Shown one piece after another: positions 22,274-33,500 of a DNA stretch of 33,710 nt. How positions within the stretch are numbered: the first letter of the stretch is position 1; every line of letters starts with the position of its first letter. The notes beneath the pieces are model-generated. The model saw only the letters and a program-made list of their open reading frames with translations. It was not told the DNA's origin and searched no databases. The stretch is from Sulfurospirillum sp. SCADC (GTDB taxonomy: Bacteria > Campylobacterota > Campylobacteria > Campylobacterales > Sulfurospirillaceae), in assembly GCF_000743525.1 (NCBI RefSeq), contig NZ_JQGK01000018.1, positions 47,273 to 80,982 of the forward strand. Reading direction: 5' to 3'. A program made the translations under genes and the position numbers.

Positions 22274-22597
22274 CTATTTAAGGAAGCGTTGTAAAAGTAG
22301 ATCTTCAAAATTTCGGCTGCTATCGGCTACCAATAAAACATAAACAACATTTTGCTCTATTTTAAAAATAATACGCCATCGCTTATGGATAACTTCTCGA
22401 TAATGACTGATCCCAATATGACTTAGCTCGGGTACAACCCTTTTCCGCTCTGGAAAATGATACAACGCATCGCAAGACTCTTTGATTTCAAAAAATACCT
22501 TTTTTGCAAGGTCTAGACTATCAAGCTTTATATACTCAACAATTTGTTCTAAATCCCCTTGTGCACTACGCGTCCAATAAACCTCATACATCTTCAT
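22274..22597 (-). CDS. RelE/ParE-superfamily toxin
   Basis: 107 residues from MKMYEVYWTRSA. The pattern YWTRSAQGDLEQIVEYIKLDS, then SCDALYHFPERKRVVPEL, YREVIHKRWRIIFKIEQNVV and YVLLVADSSRNFEDLLLQR is that of the plasmid-stabilisation RelE/ParE fold. Without a clear catalytic His/Tyr set it could be a gyrase-acting ParE or a ribosome-dependent RelE; the sequence does not settle this. ATG at 22597 overlaps the antitoxin end by 14 nt (a second ATG at 22591 is possible); the in-frame extension to 22657 would lie in the antitoxin gene. Confidence 0.87.
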   Translation of the reverse strand: MKMYEVYWTRSAQGDLEQIVEYIKLDSLDLAKKVFFEIKESCDALYHFPERKRVVPELSHIGISHYREVIHKRWRIIFKIEQNVVYVLLVADSSRNFEDLLLQRFLK

Positions 22598-22865
22598 GAA
22601 AAAGCTTCGCTTCAAGGGAAAGAAACATACCTTCTTGTTCGATGATTTTACTGTCATTTATATCATTTTCACTTTGAACAAGCAATTTAAGAAGTGTCAA
22701 CATATTTTGAGTATTTTCAAATGATTTGATGTCTTGAACGACTACTTTCGCTTCACCATTTTGTGTTATATAAATGGCTCGCTGTGTCTGTGTAACGCTA
22801 TTGACAATCTGTGCTGTGTTTGATTTGAGATAGCTTATTGGCTTAATATCTTGACTTAAATACAT
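22584..22865 (-). CDS. Phd/YefM-family antitoxin
   Basis: 93 residues. MYLSQDIKPISYLKSNTAQI and VNSVTQTQRAIYITQNGEAK followed by VVVQDIKSFENTQ is the Phd/YefM N-terminal fold (helix, strand with I-T-x-N-G-x-x-x-V-V). The C-terminal half, LLKLLVQSENDINDSKIIEQ, is the probable toxin-binding helix. ATG at 22865 follows AAGGAGGG. Two copies of TGGTATTAAAT lie just upstream and could be its operator. Partner of the RelE/ParE toxin. Confidence 0.87.
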   Translation of the reverse strand: MYLSQDIKPISYLKSNTAQIVNSVTQTQRAIYITQNGEAKVVVQDIKSFENTQNMLTLLKLLVQSENDINDSKIIEQEGMFLSLEAKLFHEDV

Positions 22866-24492: not shown

Positions 24493-24519
24493 GGGGTCAG
24501 GGTTAAACTTTTAACTTTT
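24493..24519 (+). repeat. 27-bp inverted repeat, right copy
   Basis: Begins GGGGTCAGGGT and ends TAAACTTTTAACTTTT; 24 of 27 positions match the left copy in opposite orientation. Its outer end supplies the last two codons and the stop of the HepT-like gene. Confidence 0.75.
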
Positions 24520-24864
24520 TGGTTGCGTTTCGATAATTATTTGTTCTATGTTGTATTTTAATTTTGGTAAATCATATAAAATTGTATTCCAAACAATGCG
24601 ATGGTCAATACCAAAATACTCATGAATTAAAAGATTTCTAAAATCTTTAACATCTCTCCATGCAACTTCATTGTAGTGTTGTGTTAAATTTTCTGGTAAA
24701 TGTTTTGTTGCTTCACCAATGATTTCAAATTCACGGATGACTGCACTGTAAGTCTTTCGATCATGTATAAATACTTCAAGAGTTATTCCATCTACATAGG
24801 ACAAAATCGCCTCAATAGACTCTTTAATATCGTAAATAAATAACCGTAAGTCTCTTTTAGACAT
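24511..24864 (-). CDS. hepT: HepT-like HEPN-domain toxin (DUF86)
   Basis: 117 residues, an all-alpha HEPN domain. HEPN toxins of this group are ribonucleases whose active site is R-X4-H-X-Y; here Arg76-N-L-L-I-His81-E-Tyr83 (RNLLIHEYFGID) is intact. Other family marks are YDIKESIEAI and IREFEIIGEATKHLPE. In characterised HepT/MntA pairs the antitoxin AMPylates this tyrosine. ATG at 24864 overlaps the MntA stop by eight bases. Its 3' end runs into the 27-bp repeat. Confidence 0.92.
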   Translation of the reverse strand: MSKRDLRLFIYDIKESIEAILSYVDGITLEVFIHDRKTYSAVIREFEIIGEATKHLPENLTQHYNEVAWRDVKDFRNLLIHEYFGIDHRIVWNTILYDLPKLKYNIEQIIIETQPKS

Positions 24865-25150
24865 AAATGATTTCTTTTAAAATATACTCTTTTGCAATAG
24901 GTTTAAGTGTACTTTCAATACCTAAATCTACTTTTTTACCAAAAGCCATCTCAATTTCTTGTTTAAAGCCGAAAAATGTGCGAAGCGTTTTTTTCTCTTC
25001 TATCATTTCTACAGCAATATCTATATCACTATCATCACGTTGTTCATTTCTTACATAGCTACCAAATAGTCCAATTTTTGTTACACCATATTTTTCTTTG
25101 AAAATCTCTTTATTTTTGGCTAAATAATCGAGGATTATTTTTTTATCCAC
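24857..25150 (-). CDS. mntA: MntA-like minimal nucleotidyltransferase antitoxin
   Basis: 97 residues. The nucleotidyltransferase signature G-S-X10-D-X-D is complete: GSYVRNEQRDDSDIDI, with Gly30-Ser31 and Asp42/Asp44; the third acidic residue is probably Asp96-equivalent in KKVDLGIES. MntA neutralises HepT by transferring AMP to it. The start is GTG at 25150, preceded by GGGAGG. It is the first gene of the pair and translation is coupled to HepT. Confidence 0.92.
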   Translation of the reverse strand: MDKKIILDYLAKNKEIFKEKYGVTKIGLFGSYVRNEQRDDSDIDIAVEMIEEKKTLRTFFGFKQEIEMAFGKKVDLGIESTLKPIAKEYILKEIIYV

Positions 25151-25255: not shown

Positions 25256-26539
25256 TTAGATGCCGTACATGAGTTGAGGTAACCACAAAGAGATCATAGG
25301 GATGTAGGTTACTAAAAGAAGTCCTACAAATAAAACGGCGACCCAAGGAAGAGAGGCTACAACGACCTCTTTGAGGCTCAGCCCTGTCATACCTGCTGCT
25401 ACGAAAAGGTTGAGTCCCACGGGTGGGGTTATCATGCCTATTTCCATGTTTACAACCAAAACAACACCAAAATGGATCGGATCAATGCCAAGGGCAAGAA
25501 TCAATGGTAACAACAATGGCACGGTAATCATAACGATGGAACTTGGCTCCATAAATTGCCCCATTAAGAGCAACAAGATATTGACGATCACCAAGAACAT
25601 AATCGGTCCAACATTCGCTTCCATAATCATCTTTGTGATTTGCTGAGGAATCGTCTCATCGGTTAAGAAATGCGCAAAGATCATGGCATTGGCGATAACA
25701 AAGAAGATCATCGCACTGGTAAGTGCTGACTCTAATATAATAGGATAGACATCTTTAAGTTTCAAATCTTTATAGACAAAAACGGAAACAACAAACGCAT
25801 ACACAGCACTCGCTGCACCTGCTTCTGTTGGCGTAAAAATACCTCCGTAAATTCCACCAATGACGAGAACAATCAGCATAAGCGCCCAAAAAGCTTCTTT
25901 AAACTTTTTCAAACGCTCTTTAAAAGAGGCCGGTTCTGTTTTTTTAAACCCTAAACGTACCGCACCAACATATGTTAATGCCATCAACATAAAACCAAGT
26001 AATAAACCTGGGACAACACCCGCCATAAACAGCTTACCGATGGAAAGATCGGCGGTAACACCGTAAACGATAAAAACAATGGACGGAGGAATTAAAATAC
26101 CCAAACTTCCCGATGTTGCAATCGTACCGATGGCATAGCCTCTTGGATAGCCAGCCTCTTTGATCGCGCTAAACATAACCGAACCAATCGCCGCAACCGT
26201 TGCAGGCGAACTACCGCTGACTGCCGCAAAGATCATCGCTGCAAAAATGGCAGAAATAGGAAGACCACCAGGTAAATGCCCAACAATCGACTTTGCAAAC
26301 TCAATGATACGGTGCGCCGCCCCACCTTTGGAGAGGAAAGAGCCTGCTAGAATAAACATAGGAATGGCCATGAGCGAATACTTATTGAGTCCATCAAATA
26401 CATGCGACGTAATGCCCAACAAATCCATATCGGTAAAGAAATACGCGGTAATCAGTGTACTGGAGCCTAATGCTACAGAAACAGGCACGCCAAGGAACAT
26501 CAAGAGGAAGAGTAATCCAAATATACTAAGCATTAACAT
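25256..26539 (-). CDS. dctM: TRAP transporter large permease (DctM)
   Basis: 427 residues, the usual DctM size and a dozen or so hydrophobic helices. Marks: FLLMFLGVPVSVALGSST, MAIPMFILAGSFLSKGGAA, GSSPATVAAIGSVMFSAIKEAGYP, GSLGILIPPSIVFIVYGV and the C-terminal INPPVG-type stretch here as MITPPVGLNLFVAAGM. It is the Na+-coupled membrane channel of a tripartite ATP-independent periplasmic transporter. ATG at 26539 has GGAG six bases upstream and overlaps the dctQ end by 14 bases. Confidence 0.95.
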   Translation of the reverse strand: MLMLSIFGLLFLLMFLGVPVSVALGSSTLITAYFFTDMDLLGITSHVFDGLNKYSLMAIPMFILAGSFLSKGGAAHRIIEFAKSIVGHLPGGLPISAIFAAMIFAAVSGSSPATVAAIGSVMFSAIKEAGYPRGYAIGTIATSGSLGILIPPSIVFIVYGVTADLSIGKLFMAGVVPGLLLGFMLMALTYVGAVRLGFKKTEPASFKERLKKFKEAFWALMLIVLVIGGIYGGIFTPTEAGAASAVYAFVVSVFVYKDLKLKDVYPIILESALTSAMIFFVIANAMIFAHFLTDETIPQQITKMIMEANVGPIMFLVIVNILLLLMGQFMEPSSIVMITVPLLLPLILALGIDPIHFGVVLVVNMEIGMITPPVGLNLFVAAGMTGLSLKEVVVASLPWVAVLFVGLLLVTYIPMISLWLPQLMYGI

Positions 26540-27089
26540 CTTTAACTCCTCTAATTTCTAATGAATCATGCAGCGTTTCAAGCTCGCTGTTCACGACCAC
26601 TTTACTAGCATCCGTGGCAGCCACTTCAAAAATTTTCTCTCCTGCACGAAATGCAGCCCCAATAAACGCAAAAGGCAACACAAGGTGTGGAATCCACATC
26701 GGAATGCGAAGATCAATGCTCATCTCACCAAAATCGATCAACATCAAGACCAACTCATACCCAAAATAGGACATCAATGCAAGATAGAGACAACTAAACA
26801 GATGGGCTCCCATCAAAATGATCTTTGCCATCATCGGTGGTAATTTCTCTAAAAGCATCGTCACAGAGATATGAACTCCTTTTTTGAAACCATACGCGGC
26901 ACCAAAGAGCGCTGACCACATAAAAAGATAGTTGGTAAGCTCTCCTGCCCACGTGATGCTCATCTCAAAAAAATAGCGCAACACCACGTTAGCAAACGCG
27001 AGAATAACGCCTGCGGCAATACCAAAAACCGCAATATTTTTATTGATTGCCATAACCCCTAAATCGAGGATTGTAAAATATTTTTTCAT
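26526..27089 (-). CDS. dctQ: TRAP transporter small permease (DctQ)
   Basis: About 187 residues with four predicted membrane helices: NIAVFGIAAGVILAFANVVL, LTNYLFMWSALFGAAYGF, MAKIILMGAHLFSCLYLALM and WIPHLVLPFAFIGAAFRAGE. The W-A-G/E-L-T-N-Y-L-F-M-W stretch is the family's conserved region. The ATG at 27089 (MKKYFTILDLG) is preferred to the GTG at 27107. Acts as a partner and chaperone of DctM. Confidence 0.92.
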   Translation of the reverse strand: MKKYFTILDLGVMAINKNIAVFGIAAGVILAFANVVLRYFFEMSITWAGELTNYLFMWSALFGAAYGFKKGVHISVTMLLEKLPPMMAKIILMGAHLFSCLYLALMSYFGYELVLMLIDFGEMSIDLRIPMWIPHLVLPFAFIGAAFRAGEKIFEVAATDASKVVVNSELETLHDSLEIRGVKDVNA

Positions 27090-27152
27090 CGCTTCTCTTT
27101 TTATCACAACTTTTTCATAAAGTCTTTTAAGCCATCAAGGCACAGATATAGA

Positions 27153-27193: not shown

Positions 27194-28183
27194 TTATTTA
27201 ACCGCTTGAACTTTTTTGATCAGATCTTCACCAATGACAGTGTAAAACTGTGGATAGATCGCTTCCATCGCTTTTTGCCAAACGGCTTTTTGCTCTGCAT
27301 TTAGTGTATGAATTTTAAGATTGCCTGATGTTTTTGCATACTCTTTTAACTTTGCAAGCATCTCTTCATCATCTTGTGCGGCTAGCTTTCGCTCATACAC
27401 GGTGGCTTCTTTCATCGCTTGAAGCACCATTGGTTTGAGATCCGCAGGGAATTTTTTCCAGAAACTCTCACTCATAATGACCAAGTAACCAAGGTAACCG
27501 TGATCAGAGAGTGTTAAGTCTGTTTGAACTTCGTTAAACTTTTTAGTATAGAAGTTTGAAAGGGGATTTTCAGCACCATCGACTACGCCTTGTTGAAGGG
27601 CTGAGTAGACCTCTGAAAATGGCAAAACTTGTGGATTGGCACCAATCGCTTTAAATTGAGCTTCCAAAACGTGTGAGCTCATAATACGAAACTTTTGACC
27701 TTCTGCATCTTTTGGGGTCAAAATTGCTTTTTTATTGGAAGAGAGGTGTTTAAAGCCTGCATCCCAGTAATCAAGCGCTACGAAACCTTTTGCCGTGACT
27801 TTATCTTTGAGGATTTGCCCTACTTCGCCATCTAAGACTTTATACAGATGATCTTTATCTCTAAAAATGAAGGGGAGATCGAAGAGTTGCATCTCTGGAA
27901 CAATGCTGGTAAATTTTGAGAAACTTGGCATTGCGATGTGAGCATTTCCAAGTTTAAGGGCTTTCATCTCTTCACCATCACCGTATAACTGTGAGTTGGG
28001 GAAAACAACGACTTCAACTTTACCATTGGTAAGTTCACCGACTCTTTTAGCAAAGAAATCAGCACCCATACCTTTTGGAGTATTTGGACTGACAACGTGT
28101 GTCACTTTGATGGTATATTCTGCAGCGATAGCAGAGGAAACAAGAAGCGTTGCTAGTGCCGCTACTTTGAGAAACTTAGTCAT
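27194..28183 (-). CDS. dctP: TRAP transporter periplasmic substrate-binding protein (DctP family)
   Basis: 329 residues with a signal peptide (MTKFLKVAALATLLVSSAIA). DctP fold: YTIKVTHVVSPNTPKGMGAD, LYGDGEEMKALKLGNAHIAM, DLPFIFRDKDHLYKVLDGE, and the ligand segment GQKFRIMSSHVLEAQFKAIG followed by QGVVDGAENPLSNF; the Arg in KFRIMS is the usual carboxylate-binding residue. Probable substrates are C4-dicarboxylates, though the family also binds other organic acids. AAGGAG precedes the ATG at 28183. A two-component system lies directly upstream. Confidence 0.93.
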   Translation of the reverse strand: MTKFLKVAALATLLVSSAIAAEYTIKVTHVVSPNTPKGMGADFFAKRVGELTNGKVEVVVFPNSQLYGDGEEMKALKLGNAHIAMPSFSKFTSIVPEMQLFDLPFIFRDKDHLYKVLDGEVGQILKDKVTAKGFVALDYWDAGFKHLSSNKKAILTPKDAEGQKFRIMSSHVLEAQFKAIGANPQVLPFSEVYSALQQGVVDGAENPLSNFYTKKFNEVQTDLTLSDHGYLGYLVIMSESFWKKFPADLKPMVLQAMKEATVYERKLAAQDDEEMLAKLKEYAKTSGNLKIHTLNAEQKAVWQKAMEAIYPQFYTVIGEDLIKKVQAVK

Positions 28184-28216: not shown

Positions 28217-28222
28217 ATTATA
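28217..28222 (-). promoter_or_regulatory. Putative -10 box of dctP
   Basis: TATAAT on the minus strand 34 nt before the dctP ATG. No recognisable -35 at 17 nt, compatible with activator dependence. Confidence 0.5.
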
Positions 28223-28251
28223 GGTGAAAATTATGTCAAAGTTATGTATCT

Positions 28252-28261
28252 TTACATGTAA
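28252..28261. repeat. TTACATGTAA palindrome copy 13
   Basis: In the dctP upstream region as CTTTACATGTAAAG, about 30 bp upstream of the TATAAT box. Confidence 0.9.
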
Positions 28262-28293
28262 AGCTTCAAAGCATTACGAATAAAGCTCCAATA

Positions 28294-28308
28294 GTTTCTT
28301 TTTGTAAC
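28294..28308. promoter_or_regulatory. GTTWC-N5-GTAAC site 1 upstream of dctP
   Basis: GTTTCTTTTTGTAAC, an imperfect palindrome. Its centre lies 52 bp, about five helical turns, from site 2. Candidate response-regulator operator. Confidence 0.5.
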
Positions 28309-28345
28309 TAAAATAGCTAAAATTAAACTTTTCTTGATTTTTTAT

Positions 28346-28360
28346 GTTACAATTTGTAAC
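28346..28360. promoter_or_regulatory. GTTWC-N5-GTAAC site 2 upstream of dctP
   Basis: GTTACAATTTGTAAC, 7-bp perfect arms around a central T. It overlaps the last codons and stop of the response-regulator gene. Confidence 0.55.
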
Positions 28361-29021
28361 CAATTCCTTGAATATTTTTTAAAGTACCCTCTGGTAACTT
28401 CTTTCTTAAGTTCTTAATCATCAAACGAAGGGCGTTGAGACTCATGTACTCACTCTCCCACAATTTCTGTTCAATCTCTTCATACGAGATAATAGAATCT
28501 TTTTGCAACAAAAGCTCAATGAACCTTGCCTCTTTCTTGGTCAGTTCATAAATATCACTCTCATGTGTAATGGTTTTTTGCAGTGAATCATAGTACCAAT
28601 TGGGTGCCAACTCTTGAAGATGCGCTTTCTCTTTCGCTTGCAAAAATTTTTCCAGCGCATCAAAAAGCTTAGGCTCCGTAATAGGCTTAACGATGTAGCG
28701 AAGCAAAGAGAGCTCAATGGCTTCAAGCATAAAGTCCACCTCCGTGTATGCGGTGATGATAATAATATCTGCCTTCTGGTCGTTCTCTCGAATTTTTTTT
28801 GCCAAATCAATACCGCTTAAATGGGGCATCTTGATGTCGGTAATAATGAGGTCTGGTTTATGCTCTACAAAAAGCTTATACGCCTCTTCTCCATCGGTTG
28901 CAAGGTAGACCTCTTTGAAAAGAAGACCAAGTAGTTCATAGACATTTTTACGTACACCAGCTTCATCTTCAGCGTACAAAACACTATACGATGCAAGCTT
29001 TTTTAACATCTTTTCATCCAT
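28347..29021 (-). CDS. Response regulator with OmpR-type winged-helix output (DctR-like)
   Basis: 224 residues. Receiver domain at about 10-125: acidic pocket YAEDE, phospho-acceptor Asp62 in IITDIKMPHLSG, switch Thr in IIITAYTE, Lys in YIVKPIT. The C-terminal DNA-binding domain at about 135-224 (YELTKKEARFIELLL, SLNALRLMIKNLRKKLPEGT, IQGIGYKL) is the OmpR/PhoB winged helix. ATG at 29021 is preceded by AAAGGGTGG; the longer in-frame extension to 29345 would overlap the divergent kinase gene. It is transcribed toward dctP and away from the kinase, so control of the TRAP operon is likely but not shown. Confidence 0.92.
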   Translation of the reverse strand: MDEKMLKKLASYSVLYAEDEAGVRKNVYELLGLLFKEVYLATDGEEAYKLFVEHKPDLIITDIKMPHLSGIDLAKKIRENDQKADIIIITAYTEVDFMLEAIELSLLRYIVKPITEPKLFDALEKFLQAKEKAHLQELAPNWYYDSLQKTITHESDIYELTKKEARFIELLLQKDSIISYEEIEQKLWESEYMSLNALRLMIKNLRKKLPEGTLKNIQGIGYKL

Positions 29022-29103: not shown

Positions 29104-30702
29104 GTGAAGATTATTAAAGAGAGCAATATCTCTACGATCATTATTGTTAGTACCATCTTTATTATCAGCTCTTTGATGCTTTTTAATGGGTATTTTTTCA
29201 TTACTAAACAGTATGAAATTTTACAAGTGCAGATCGAAGATACTAAAAAAACGTTCGTTGAAAATAAACGCAACATGCTTAAGCGTGAAGTTGATGCTAT
29301 TATAGAATTTATTGAGTTTAAAAAAGCGCGAACGGATCTTTCCAATCCAGATGCACTCGCAATCCTTAAACAAGAAGTTTACAGCTGGATACGCCATATT
29401 CGCTATGGTGGACAAGAGCATAACTATATTTTTGTCTATCAACTAGAACGAATGAAAGGTGGCGATCAATTTGCCACCATGCTCATCAACCCTAACCGTC
29501 CTGATTTAGAAGGTGGGTACATCTCGGATGCGTATACGGATGAAAATGGGAAAGCTTTTCGTAAAATCTTCTTGCAAGATATTGATGAAAAAGGGGACTC
29601 TTTTGTCGATTACACCTATAAAAAACCAGATACCAACATCATTCGCCCTAAGGTTTCTTATTTTAAACTCTACAAAGAGTGGAATATCATCATCGCAGCA
29701 GGCGCTTACACCGACGATATTGATCAAGAGCTAGAGGTCGCTCGATCTGATTTTAAAAAACGAATGAAGCTTGAGGCTACTTCAGCGATTATTATTTTTC
29801 TTCTTTTTGCCTTCATTGCCAATACCTTTGCCGTGATATTGGGCAAACGAATCGAACGCTTTTTAAATACCTACCATAAACAGGTTCAGCAAAAAACACT
29901 TGAACTCGAAAACCTCAACCGCACGTTGGAAAGTCGCGTCACAGAAGAGATCAAGAAGAACCGTGAACAAGAGCAACTGCTCATCCAAAAGTCTAAATTT
30001 ATAGCGCTTGGAGAGATGATCAGCAACATCGCACACCAGTGGAGACAACCGCTCTCGCAGCTTTCAGCCCTTTTGATGACGCTCAAACTAAAATACAATA
30101 TGGACAAGCTCGATAAAACAGCGATGGAAATTAAATGCGTTGAAGCAGAAAATATCGTTGAGTATATGTCTCACACCATCGATGATTTTCGTAACTTCTT
30201 TATGCCCAACAAAGACAAAAAAATGTTTAGTATTCAAACGTCTATCGACGACGTTTTGCGCATCATTGCTATGTCTATTACCAATCAAGAGATCGAAATA
30301 GAGGTCAATATCTTACACGATGAATTTATCATAGGCTATAAAAGTGAATACGAACAAGTTGTTCTCAACCTTCTCTCAAACGCCAAAGATGCCATCATCA
30401 CGTCAGGAAAACAGGGTGGTAAAATTACCATTAGCCTTGAGAGTGACGAACATATGGTACGTCTTAGCATTGAAGATAATGGTGGTGGCATCAAGATAGC
30501 GCCGATTGATAAGATTTTTGAGCCTTATGTAAGCACCAAAGAGCAAAATGAAGGTACAGGCATTGGGCTGTATATGGCAAAATTGATTATAGAGAAAAGT
30601 ATGAGAGGAAAACTTGAAGCACGAAATGAAAAAGAAGGAGCTTTTTTTACGATTGAGTTGGAGAAAGGTTTCAAAGAGACGCTTGGCGGATCGCCTCTTT
30701 GA
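29104..30702 (+). CDS. Membrane-bound sensor histidine kinase with periplasmic Cache domain
   Basis: 532 residues. TM1 about 10-32, a periplasmic Cache-type sensor (about 35-220; NYIFVYQLERMKGGDQFATM, DLEGGYISDAYTDENGKAF, EWNIIIAAGAYTDDIDQEL), TM2 about 226-246, a coiled-coil (about 255-298), then HisKA with H-box FIALGEMISNIAHQWRQPLS (His311) and HATPase with N-box VVLNLLSNAKDAI, DNGGGI and GTGIGLYMAKLI. Cache sensors in this family often bind small organic acids, which suits the neighbouring TRAP transporter. GTG start at 29104 follows GGGAG. Divergent from the response-regulator gene. Confidence 0.93.
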   Translation: MKIIKESNISTIIIVSTIFIISSLMLFNGYFFITKQYEILQVQIEDTKKTFVENKRNMLKREVDAIIEFIEFKKARTDLSNPDALAILKQEVYSWIRHIRYGGQEHNYIFVYQLERMKGGDQFATMLINPNRPDLEGGYISDAYTDENGKAFRKIFLQDIDEKGDSFVDYTYKKPDTNIIRPKVSYFKLYKEWNIIIAAGAYTDDIDQELEVARSDFKKRMKLEATSAIIIFLLFAFIANTFAVILGKRIERFLNTYHKQVQQKTLELENLNRTLESRVTEEIKKNREQEQLLIQKSKFIALGEMISNIAHQWRQPLSQLSALLMTLKLKYNMDKLDKTAMEIKCVEAENIVEYMSHTIDDFRNFFMPNKDKKMFSIQTSIDDVLRIIAMSITNQEIEIEVNILHDEFIIGYKSEYEQVVLNLLSNAKDAIITSGKQGGKITISLESDEHMVRLSIEDNGGGIKIAPIDKIFEPYVSTKEQNEGTGIGLYMAKLIIEKSMRGKLEARNEKEGAFFTIELEKGFKETLGGSPL

Positions 30703-31756: not shown

Positions 31757-31877
31757 TTCGAATTGATTTTAACTCGGCAAAATGGAAGTTTGAAGGCTTC
31801 TATTTTTTCCTCGTTACCTTTTATCATTGACTCCTTTTACCACATCGCGTTACACCCAAAAGGCGAATTTTTACATT

Positions 31878-33500
31878 ATGAATATACTCTCAAAAAACGC
31901 ACCACTCGAAGTCTCTATTTTAAAAATGGAAACGATTTTAAGCGATCTTGGTTGTGGCATCACCTTTGCAACCGAAAAACATCCACTAAAAAACTGCTAC
32001 TCCATCAATCTTGCCTCTGTTGAAGCACCCAATCATATTTATTCTAACGGTAAAGGCTCCCTCTCTGGCGCATCGAAAGCGAGCGCGCTTGGTGAGTACA
32101 TCGAACGCCTTCAAACCAATAACTGTTTTATCGACTTTCACCTTCCCAACCGTGCTTACTACCCAGACCAAAAAGTGTTTGAATTTGGCGGAGAGTATCT
32201 GAGCCCATCTTTACATGGTATTTACAATCCATCCAATGAGATGAGTAACGAAGACTTTGTGGATTTCAACAGCGACTATCTGGACAAGATCGTAGCACTT
32301 CCATTTCAAAGCTTTTTTGGGAATGAACACGTTTACATTCCTCTTAACATCCTCAGCAATCTTTACGTGAGCAACGGACTCGCGAGCGGAAATACGCCTG
32401 ATGAAGCCAAAGTGCAAGCGCTGAGTGAAATTTTTGAGCGTTACGCCAAAATAGAGATCATTAAAAATGGTTACGCGCTTCCAAAGTACCCAGAAGACAT
32501 CATCGCAACTTTCCCTAAACTTCAAGCAGATTTGGTGGAGCTTAGAAAAGCGGGCTTCATCGTTGAAGTCCTTGATGCGTCTTTGGGTGGCAAATTTCCT
32601 GTGACAGCCTTTTCGCTCATTAACCCACGCAAGGGCACGCTGTTTGTCTCCTTTGGCGCGCATCCCATTTTGGAAGTCAGCCTAGAGCGCACCATGAGCG
32701 AGCTGATGCAAGGACGAGGCGTTGAAAATCTTGACGCGTTTGAGATGCCAACGTTTGATATGAGCATCGTCGGCGATAGCTTCAACCTAGAAGCACACTT
32801 TATCGATTCTAACGGCAAAATGGGCTTTTCTTTTTTAAGTGCCACTAAAAGTTTTGAGTATGCACCGTGGAATTACCGAGGTAAAGGAAGTGTTGAGGAA
32901 TACGCCTTTTTATGCGACATCGTCAAGTCGATGGGCAAAGAGATTTATCTACGCGAATACACCTACTTAGACTTTTACTCATGCCAGATGATCGTGCCTA
33001 GCATCTCTGAGGTTTATCCCATCAAAGACATGGTGTATCAAAACCGAAACAGCGGTAAATTCATACGCCATAGTGTGCTCAATTTTAAAGATGAAGACCA
33101 CGAAGCCTTGCTTGATGCCATCGAACCACTGGAAGATTCACTCAATATGGAAAAATACATCGGCGTCATTTTCGAGCAAAATTTCCAGATGATCGAGCTT
33201 AAAGCGCAAGTGCATCTGCTGTTGGAAAACTACGAAGAGGTTCAAATGCTGCTCTCGTTTAGTCAAAATCCTATGAGCAAACTTCTCTGCGAAATCCTCT
33301 CTTTGAGAGAGCAAAAACTTGTGTGGAATGAGTATGAAAGTGCGCTTTGGGACATTTTTGGCAAAAAAAAAGTCGAACATGCCTTAAACATCCTTGATGG
33401 CAAGGCTTACCTCATCGACGTAAGCCTCCACCAACACTATGTGAATATCCTCGATATGTACGATAGACTCGAGCTTAAGAAAGCGTCTATCGTCGCTTAA
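31878..33500 (+). CDS. ycaO: YcaO-domain protein with C-terminal helical (TPR-like) domain
   Basis: About 540 residues. YcaO proteins are ATP-dependent cyclodehydratase/kinase-like enzymes; E. coli YcaO, of near-identical layout, is linked to RimO-dependent methylthiolation of ribosomal protein S12. The ATP/Mg-binding segments are present: NGKGSLSGASKASALGEYIE then RLQTNN, NLYVSNGLASGNTPDEAKVQ then ALSEIFERYAK, SLGGKFPVTAF and SFGAHPILEVSLERTMSELM. About 390-540 is a helical repeat-type tail (KYIGVIFEQNFQMIELKAQV, LSFSQNPMSKLLCEIL). ATG at 31878 is chosen over the TTG at 31827. No ribosome-binding site is obvious. No peptide-precursor gene lies beside it, so the S12-type role is more likely than RiPP synthesis. 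Confidence 0.9.
   Translation: MNILSKNAPLEVSILKMETILSDLGCGITFATEKHPLKNCYSINLASVEAPNHIYSNGKGSLSGASKASALGEYIERLQTNNCFIDFHLPNRAYYPDQKVFEFGGEYLSPSLHGIYNPSNEMSNEDFVDFNSDYLDKIVALPFQSFFGNEHVYIPLNILSNLYVSNGLASGNTPDEAKVQALSEIFERYAKIEIIKNGYALPKYPEDIIATFPKLQADLVELRKAGFIVEVLDASLGGKFPVTAFSLINPRKGTLFVSFGAHPILEVSLERTMSELMQGRGVENLDAFEMPTFDMSIVGDSFNLEAHFIDSNGKMGFSFLSATKSFEYAPWNYRGKGSVEEYAFLCDIVKSMGKEIYLREYTYLDFYSCQMIVPSISEVYPIKDMVYQNRNSGKFIRHSVLNFKDEDHEALLDAIEPLEDSLNMEKYIGVIFEQNFQMIELKAQVHLLLENYEEVQMLLSFSQNPMSKLLCEILSLREQKLVWNEYESALWDIFGKKKVEHALNILDGKAYLIDVSLHQHYVNILDMYDRLELKKASIVA

Follow-up and report, generated by a model that had tools for sequence, protein, structure and literature searches.

Comparison with described regulatory systems

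In the DctB/DctD and DcuS/DcuR systems, C4-dicarboxylate transport genes are controlled by a Cache-type sensor kinase, as at the locus described here. The regulators of those systems are of the NtrC or CitB type, whereas that of the present locus is OmpR-type. In Campylobacter, a paper on RacR reportedly deals with fumarate control.

PceP (RR2), the OmpR-type regulator of the PCE regulon in Sulfurospirillum, binds direct repeats overlapping the -35 region, with one shared site 85 bp upstream of its start sites (PMC7755780). The present locus resembles this system in genus and in regulator type, and its -35 region likewise overlaps short direct repeats with a period of 11 bp. It differs in the half-site, which is CTATW for PceP, with N17 between the bound pair (PMC7755780), and ACATAA here; on reading the region, no CTATW-N17-CTATW arrangement was found. 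A word search of the PceP paper found neither 'inverted repeat' nor 'palindrom' (PMC7755780).

AgrR of Cupriavidus metallidurans, taken together with CopR/PcoR, offers a second likeness, since this OmpR-family regulator combines an inverted repeat of the half-site ATTACA with phased direct repeats. Its 16-bp 6-4-6 box has flanking half-sites (PMC7380067), whereas the palindrome here is 15 bp long, with its start 61 bp above a direct repeat that stands apart from it. By reading, the palindrome at the regulator stop codon is GTTACA-N3-TGTAAC, 15 bp long, and departs from the 16-bp AgrR/CopR box ATKACA-N4-TGTMAT. ArcA of Escherichia coli binds direct-repeat elements with an 11-bp centre distance and extra elements at helical spacings, and its footprints include a dctA promoter (PMC3798270). 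ArcA, however, governs a global redox regulon (PMC3798270), whereas the elements described here precede a few dicarboxylate transport genes and the upstream ones are inverted, not direct.

The region upstream of dctP in Sulfurospirillum sp. SCADC is predicted to carry a three-piece control element for dicarboxylate uptake genes, conserved in Sulfurospirillum and its relatives. Operators of this kind, belonging to OmpR-type two-component systems, are already known; a site at the regulator stop codon and phase-locked evolution of the spacer are unusual. No published description of the element was found in the open-licence literature.

Organization of the locus

The window, the whole stretch of DNA that was analysed, comprises 33,710 nucleotides. 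On the minus strand it contains, in order, an OmpR-type response regulator gene (28347..29021), a gap of 163 bp and the TRAP transporter genes dctP (solute-binding protein, 27194..28183), dctQ (small permease subunit, 26526..27107) and dctM (large permease subunit, 25256..26539). A sensor histidine kinase gene with a Cache domain (29104..30702, plus strand) is divergent from the regulator gene. The regulator has a receiver domain and a winged helix and ends in GIGYKL-stop. Both PF00072 and PF00486 (Trans_reg_C) exceed the cut-off in a Pfam scan, which is the domain pair of an OmpR/PhoB-type protein, and there is a near full-length match to a solved relative, 1kgs, listed as DNA BINDING RESPONSE REGULATOR D. 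It is the sole regulator among the 15 window proteins scanned with Pfam. The stretch between the regulator and kinase genes contains neither the direct nor the inverted repeat at a good score, so autoregulation was not seen.

The preliminary description had reported two palindromes upstream of dctP, and its coordinates are exact. Site 1 (28346..28360) is a perfect inverted repeat, GTTAC-N5-GTAAC, which holds the last codons of the regulator gene and, as had been claimed, its stop codon (28347-28349); the coding strand reads GGT TAC AAA TTG TAA C. Site 2 (28294..28308) is GTTTC-N5-GTAAC, or GTTAC-N5-GAAAC on the minus strand, with one arm mismatch, and its centre is 52 bp from that of site 1. 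A TATAAT box without a -35 had also been noted; it lies at 28217..28222 on the minus strand, and a consensus promoter scan gave no -10/-35 pair there. The position of the 'missing -35' is occupied by a feature that had been overlooked, a direct repeat ACATAA-N5-ACATAA (28231..28247, minus strand) with an 11-bp period. This repeat is the candidate primary regulator site. The -10 box of the dctP promoter starts 25 bp after its start, and site 2 starts 61 bp upstream of it.

The GTTAC motif, with at most one mismatch, occurs eight times in the window against 3.6 expected, and three of 100 shuffled sequences scored as high. Genome-wide it is not enriched, with 8+6 = 14 strand matches compared with 12+8 = 20 for the reversed control. 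Despite these unenriched counts, pure chance was ruled out as an origin of the palindromes by their conservation and fixed spacing; site 2 is conserved, as is site 1 in both its arms at 27 of 36 loci.

Conservation upstream of dctP

The dctP genes of 60 relatives and of further family members yielded 38 upstream regions from the family, defined as Sulfurospirillum and four sister genera. The direct repeat with TATAAT was scored as present at 16/18 positions or more, and the inverted repeat at 8/10 arm positions or more. The regulator gene lies directly upstream of dctP in 36 of these regions but not in the other two (L117 and L118). ACATAA-N5-ACATAA, with TATAAT 8 bp further on, is present in 33/38 regions, and thus the direct repeats with a 10-11 bp period that mark OmpR/PhoB operators are found in these 33. 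In all 33 an inverted repeat lies above the direct repeat, starting at 60-62 bp in 28 regions and at 70 bp in five.

The five regions without the direct repeat (from genomes G011, G012, G014, G016 and G023; L016 and L019-L022) belong to one Sulfurospirillum regulator clade (support 80/82). In this clade the regulator gene is still beside dctP and site 2 is kept, but neither the direct repeat nor site 1 remains. Site 2 lies 75 bp from TATAAT, compared with 86 bp, which is shorter by about one helical turn. Conservation before orthologous dctP genes, which the preliminary description had set as a check on its proposal, is borne out by the inverted repeat in the 33 regions and by site 2 in these exceptions.

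Some upstream regions have features of their own. In L007, L009 and L171 a longer inverted repeat encloses site 2 and could form an RNA hairpin. In L033, from a genome without a regulator orthologue, GTTTC-N5-GTAAC occurs 89 bp upstream of dctP, by chance or as the site of another binder. A palindrome before dctP in L037, outside both families studied, was set aside as a likely insertion-sequence end. In that genome (G051) dctP is split, and a 155-aa transposase-like frame occurs twice, upstream of the gene and again between its parts.

A second putative target, dctA, and the predicted regulon

When up to one mismatch was allowed, the direct repeat combined with the -10 box matched 0-2 times in each of 44 family genomes, and the reversed control gave one match in total. 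The recurrent target other than dctP is a sodium:dicarboxylate symporter gene, dctA (PF00375), unlinked to dctPQM; NCBIfam DctA models match its protein below their cut-offs. In all 16 dctA loci fetched, including that of strain SCADC, the direct repeat is preceded by an inverted repeat (at least 9/10) whose start lies 60-61 bp above it. As 15 of these loci were chosen via the direct repeat and one via the inverted repeat, the independent result is the spacing to the other part only. The locus located via the inverted repeat is that of strain SCADC itself, where the direct repeat scores 16/18. All five genomes that lack the direct repeat at dctP retain it at dctA.

Strict matches to the inverted motif occur at eight loci of the SCADC genome besides dctP. 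One of these is dctA; at the remaining seven, the flanks from 30 to 140 bp in both directions contain no direct repeat (best score 12/18), and five of the seven fall inside open frames. The binder of the module therefore seems dedicated to a dctP/dctA regulon. In the same genome, GTTACGTTTTGTAAC lies over the start region of a frame in L271 (1275-1289), with no direct repeat nearby; by eye, this frame resembles the periplasmic binding protein of a tripartite transporter.

Other matches to the direct repeat are scattered. One in G025, accompanied by an inverted repeat, precedes a gene of no assigned identity, and one in G031, without an inverted repeat, precedes a gene resembling malate:quinone oxidoreductase. 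A match before gltX in G001, also without an inverted repeat, looks like chance. The two matches in G022 are at dctA-like sequence; the best regulator match in this assembly, which is 88% complete, is a paralogue, and this runs counter to the co-occurrence of repeat and regulator. Closer inspection covered the matches other than these two and those on G003 contig 155, G060 contig 107, G017 contig 7, G031 contig 69 and G028 contig 94; L254 was assessed by reading alone.

When 398 genomes of the order were searched for the complete module, with spacers from 36 to 56 bp permitted, 33 matches in 26 genomes were obtained, compared with one for the reversed control. The spacer is 45-47 bp in 33/33 matches (checked at 20 loci and read from coordinates at 13), a uniformity limited to matchable promoters because the strict module pattern does not fit the repeats of the promoters spaced at 70 bp. 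The 26 genomes comprise 24 of the Sulfurospirillum family, one of the second family described below (G079), and G230. The match in G230 is probably due to chance, the fetched stretch containing no dct, regulator or kinase homologue.

The stop-codon site

Of the 36 regulator genes adjoining dctP, 35 use TAC for the Tyr of GYKL, 28 have a C directly after the stop, and 27 retain both palindrome arms intact. Four orthologues lie away from dctP (L098, L105, L110 and L111; the sequence after L110 and L111 ends within about 150 bp). The end of the peptide is identical in these four, whereas the Tyr codon is TAT in 4/4, C follows the stop in 0/4 and the palindrome is intact in 0/4. The difference between adjacent and non-adjacent genes gives Fisher values of 5e-5 for the Tyr codon and 0.005 for the base after the stop, which ignore relatedness. 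The tail codons of the non-adjacent orthologues rule out pure coding constraint at site 1. The regulator tails of the second family agree, with TAT as the Tyr codon in 11/13 (counted by hand). On these comparisons the palindrome in the regulator tail is dependent on adjacency to dctP, and site 1 is a putative operator as well as the end of a coding sequence.

The distance from site 1 to the direct repeat is 60-62, 70, 80, 92, 100-101, 110-113 or 119 bp. In thirteen length classes, collapsed by hand from 30 loci, the vector length is 0.715 at 10.5 bp, with p of about 0.0006 at a fixed period and 0.003 when periods of 9-12 bp are scanned; the ten distinct distances alone give 0.007. L171 (119 bp) is a poor fit to the phase. 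In L027, L030, L173 and L174, which have short spacers, the stop-codon palindrome itself occupies the 60-62 bp position. Among these loci the spacer changes mostly by whole helical turns. The helical phasing of the preliminary description, which had placed the two palindromes on one face of the helix, thus finds support in the clustering of these distances at helical multiples.

The direct repeat tracks the regulator in a second family

The second family (f9), probably the Arcobacteraceae, has dctP in 65/81 genomes, and 51 upstream regions were obtained from 50 of these 65; the region of G118 is N-masked and dctP of G064 starts at a contig edge, so that these two were not evaluable. The direct repeat scores at least 14/18 in 42/51 regions, compared with 177/2040 shuffled sequences. 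Three of the 42 regions also bear the inverted repeat. This indicates that the direct and inverted parts can come apart.

The table of second-family regulators used in scoring the repeats was compiled by hand. In a tree, the regulators of 41 evaluable genomes form one clade with that of the window, apart from paralogues (FastTree, local support 98). This quick tree, which kept 20/37 family regulators and dropped four long-branch paralogues, confirmed the orthology of 33 second-family regulators previously assigned by identity alone. A slower tree of 95 rows, leaving out L028 as too short and including 13 second-family regulators, gave support of 89/70 for the join. The direct repeat is present in 41/41 second-family genomes with a regulator orthologue, compared with 1/8 without. 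Among those without, G072, G091, G096, G102, G103 and G114 have no regulator match at 1e-45, and G070 and G083 were so counted because their best matches are paralogues. The sole orthologue-less genome with the repeat is G083, in which the repeat has the lowest accepted score (14/18) and the assembly is 74% complete. Regulator and repeat also occur together within genera. In genus g32, G126 has both and G072 and G102 have neither; in genus g38, G079 has both and G096 has neither.

The inverted repeat has a narrower distribution in this family. It occurs at 60 bp in G077 and G079 and at 52 bp in G126, and in 0/38 of the other genomes with an orthologue. The regulators of these three genomes group together as a separate clade (support 100). 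G105 belongs to the same genus as G077, has the other regulator lineage and lacks the inverted repeat. The direct repeat thus tracks the regulator and the inverted repeat tracks sublineages of it, which favours the regulator as the binder of both.

Proposed mechanism and alternatives

The region is probably a composite operator of a small C4-dicarboxylate uptake regulon, with the regulator on the -35 direct repeat and on phased inverted repeats. The comparisons show conservation, spacing and phasing of the parts, their association with the regulator and with its sublineages, and their sharing between dctP and dctA. We infer which protein occupies each part, the nature of the signal, and activation over repression. 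The Cache-domain kinase would sense a dicarboxylate and switch the regulator by phosphorylation. Phosphorylated regulator would then bind head-to-tail at the ACATAA-N5-ACATAA repeats that cover the -35 regions of dctPQM and dctA, and could recruit RNA polymerase to a promoter without a good -35 box. The phased upstream inverted repeats may stabilize, strengthen or modulate the complex; in the simplest case they would be occupied by additional molecules of this regulator.

The direct repeat is the most likely site of regulator binding, as presence of the regulator tracks it better than the palindromes across families, and the regulator probably binds the inverted repeats too. The preliminary description had put forward the palindromes as candidate sites of the regulator at the TRAP operon. 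Their attribution to the adjoining dicarboxylate two-component system stands and binding to them is likely from the sequence comparisons, but the primary site is more likely to be the direct repeat. Binding to the palindromes only, with the ACATAA repeat a promoter element or belonging elsewhere, is highly improbable. Such a reading would suit palindromes that are conserved, phased and situated where the gene of the regulator itself ends, and the half-site ATTACA, in inverted repeats bound by OmpR-type AgrR, is similar (PMC7380067). It is countered by the second family, in which presence of the regulator tracks the direct repeat (41/41) and 38 of those 41 genomes lack the palindrome, and the scarcity of the ACATAA repeat across the 44 family genomes shows that it is no general promoter element. 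Two proteins might instead share the region, the regulator on the direct repeat and another, for example of LysR type, on the inverted repeats. This is possible, although rather unlikely. The palindrome fits the LysR-type T-N11-A box, LysR-type Cj1000 activates fumarate genes in Campylobacter jejuni (PMC6682613), most second-family promoters with regulator and direct repeat lack the inverted repeat (3/42 have it), and in five genomes the inverted repeat persists at dctP without the direct repeat. On the other hand, the second-family inverted repeat follows one response-regulator sublineage, even inside a single genus; seven of the eight other strict motif loci lack the direct repeat and the eighth is dctA, as if the binder were dedicated to the regulon; and no LysR family was found among the 15 window proteins scanned.

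It is scarcely credible that the regulator gene has its intrinsic terminator in site 2 and that site 1 amounts to no more than codons of the GYKL tail. Long hairpins do surround site 2 in L007, L009 and L171, site 1 does encode a conserved tail, and a look-alike before dctP in L034, outside both families, follows nuoN-type genes and was set aside as a likely terminator. In the window, however, the arms of site 2 are mismatched and no T-run follows, and dctA has the same repeat at a fixed distance. Away from dctP the tail codons differ and the peptide does not (C after the stop in 28/36 versus 0/4), and the stop-codon palindrome stands at the 60-62 bp position in the four short-spacer loci.

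Within the composite operator proposed above, the chances seem about even for a more specific arrangement. The last four codons and stop of the regulator gene would be an operator for its own downstream operon, doubly selected as protein and as DNA. A single helically phased complex would form, with the same regulator on this site, on site 2 and on the -35 direct repeat, and hence spacers would change mainly in whole turns. The comparison yields a predicted regulon (dctPQM and dctA) with exact candidate sites for an uncharacterized two-component system in two bacterial families, and a case of an operator overlapping a regulator stop codon in which spacer length evolves in helical steps.

Other features of the window

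The palindrome TTTACATGTAAA, one copy of which lies between the promoter and site 2, was suspected of being a third operator and was ruled out as a genome-wide repeated word. There are 657 copies in the 2.66-Mb genome, compared with 0 for the reversed control, and it is present in both coding and intergenic DNA. Exact copies in the window lie at 972, 1337, 3880, 8776, 18934, 21900, 22232, 25242, 28251 and 33506; with at most one mismatch there are 14, against 0.27 expected. Counts range from 14 to 792 across 24 Sulfurospirillum genomes and from 0 to 346 in 20 other family genomes. We take it to be reminiscent of HIP1-like repeated words. Papers containing the string, judged by title and the start of the abstract, concern other subjects.

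Downstream of dctM (24511-25150), a HepT-like ribonuclease gene adjoins a nucleotidyltransferase gene, probably as a toxin-antitoxin pair. A gene for a ParE-type toxin lies at 22274-22657, and a gene for a YcaO-domain protein lies beyond the kinase gene, at 31827-33500.
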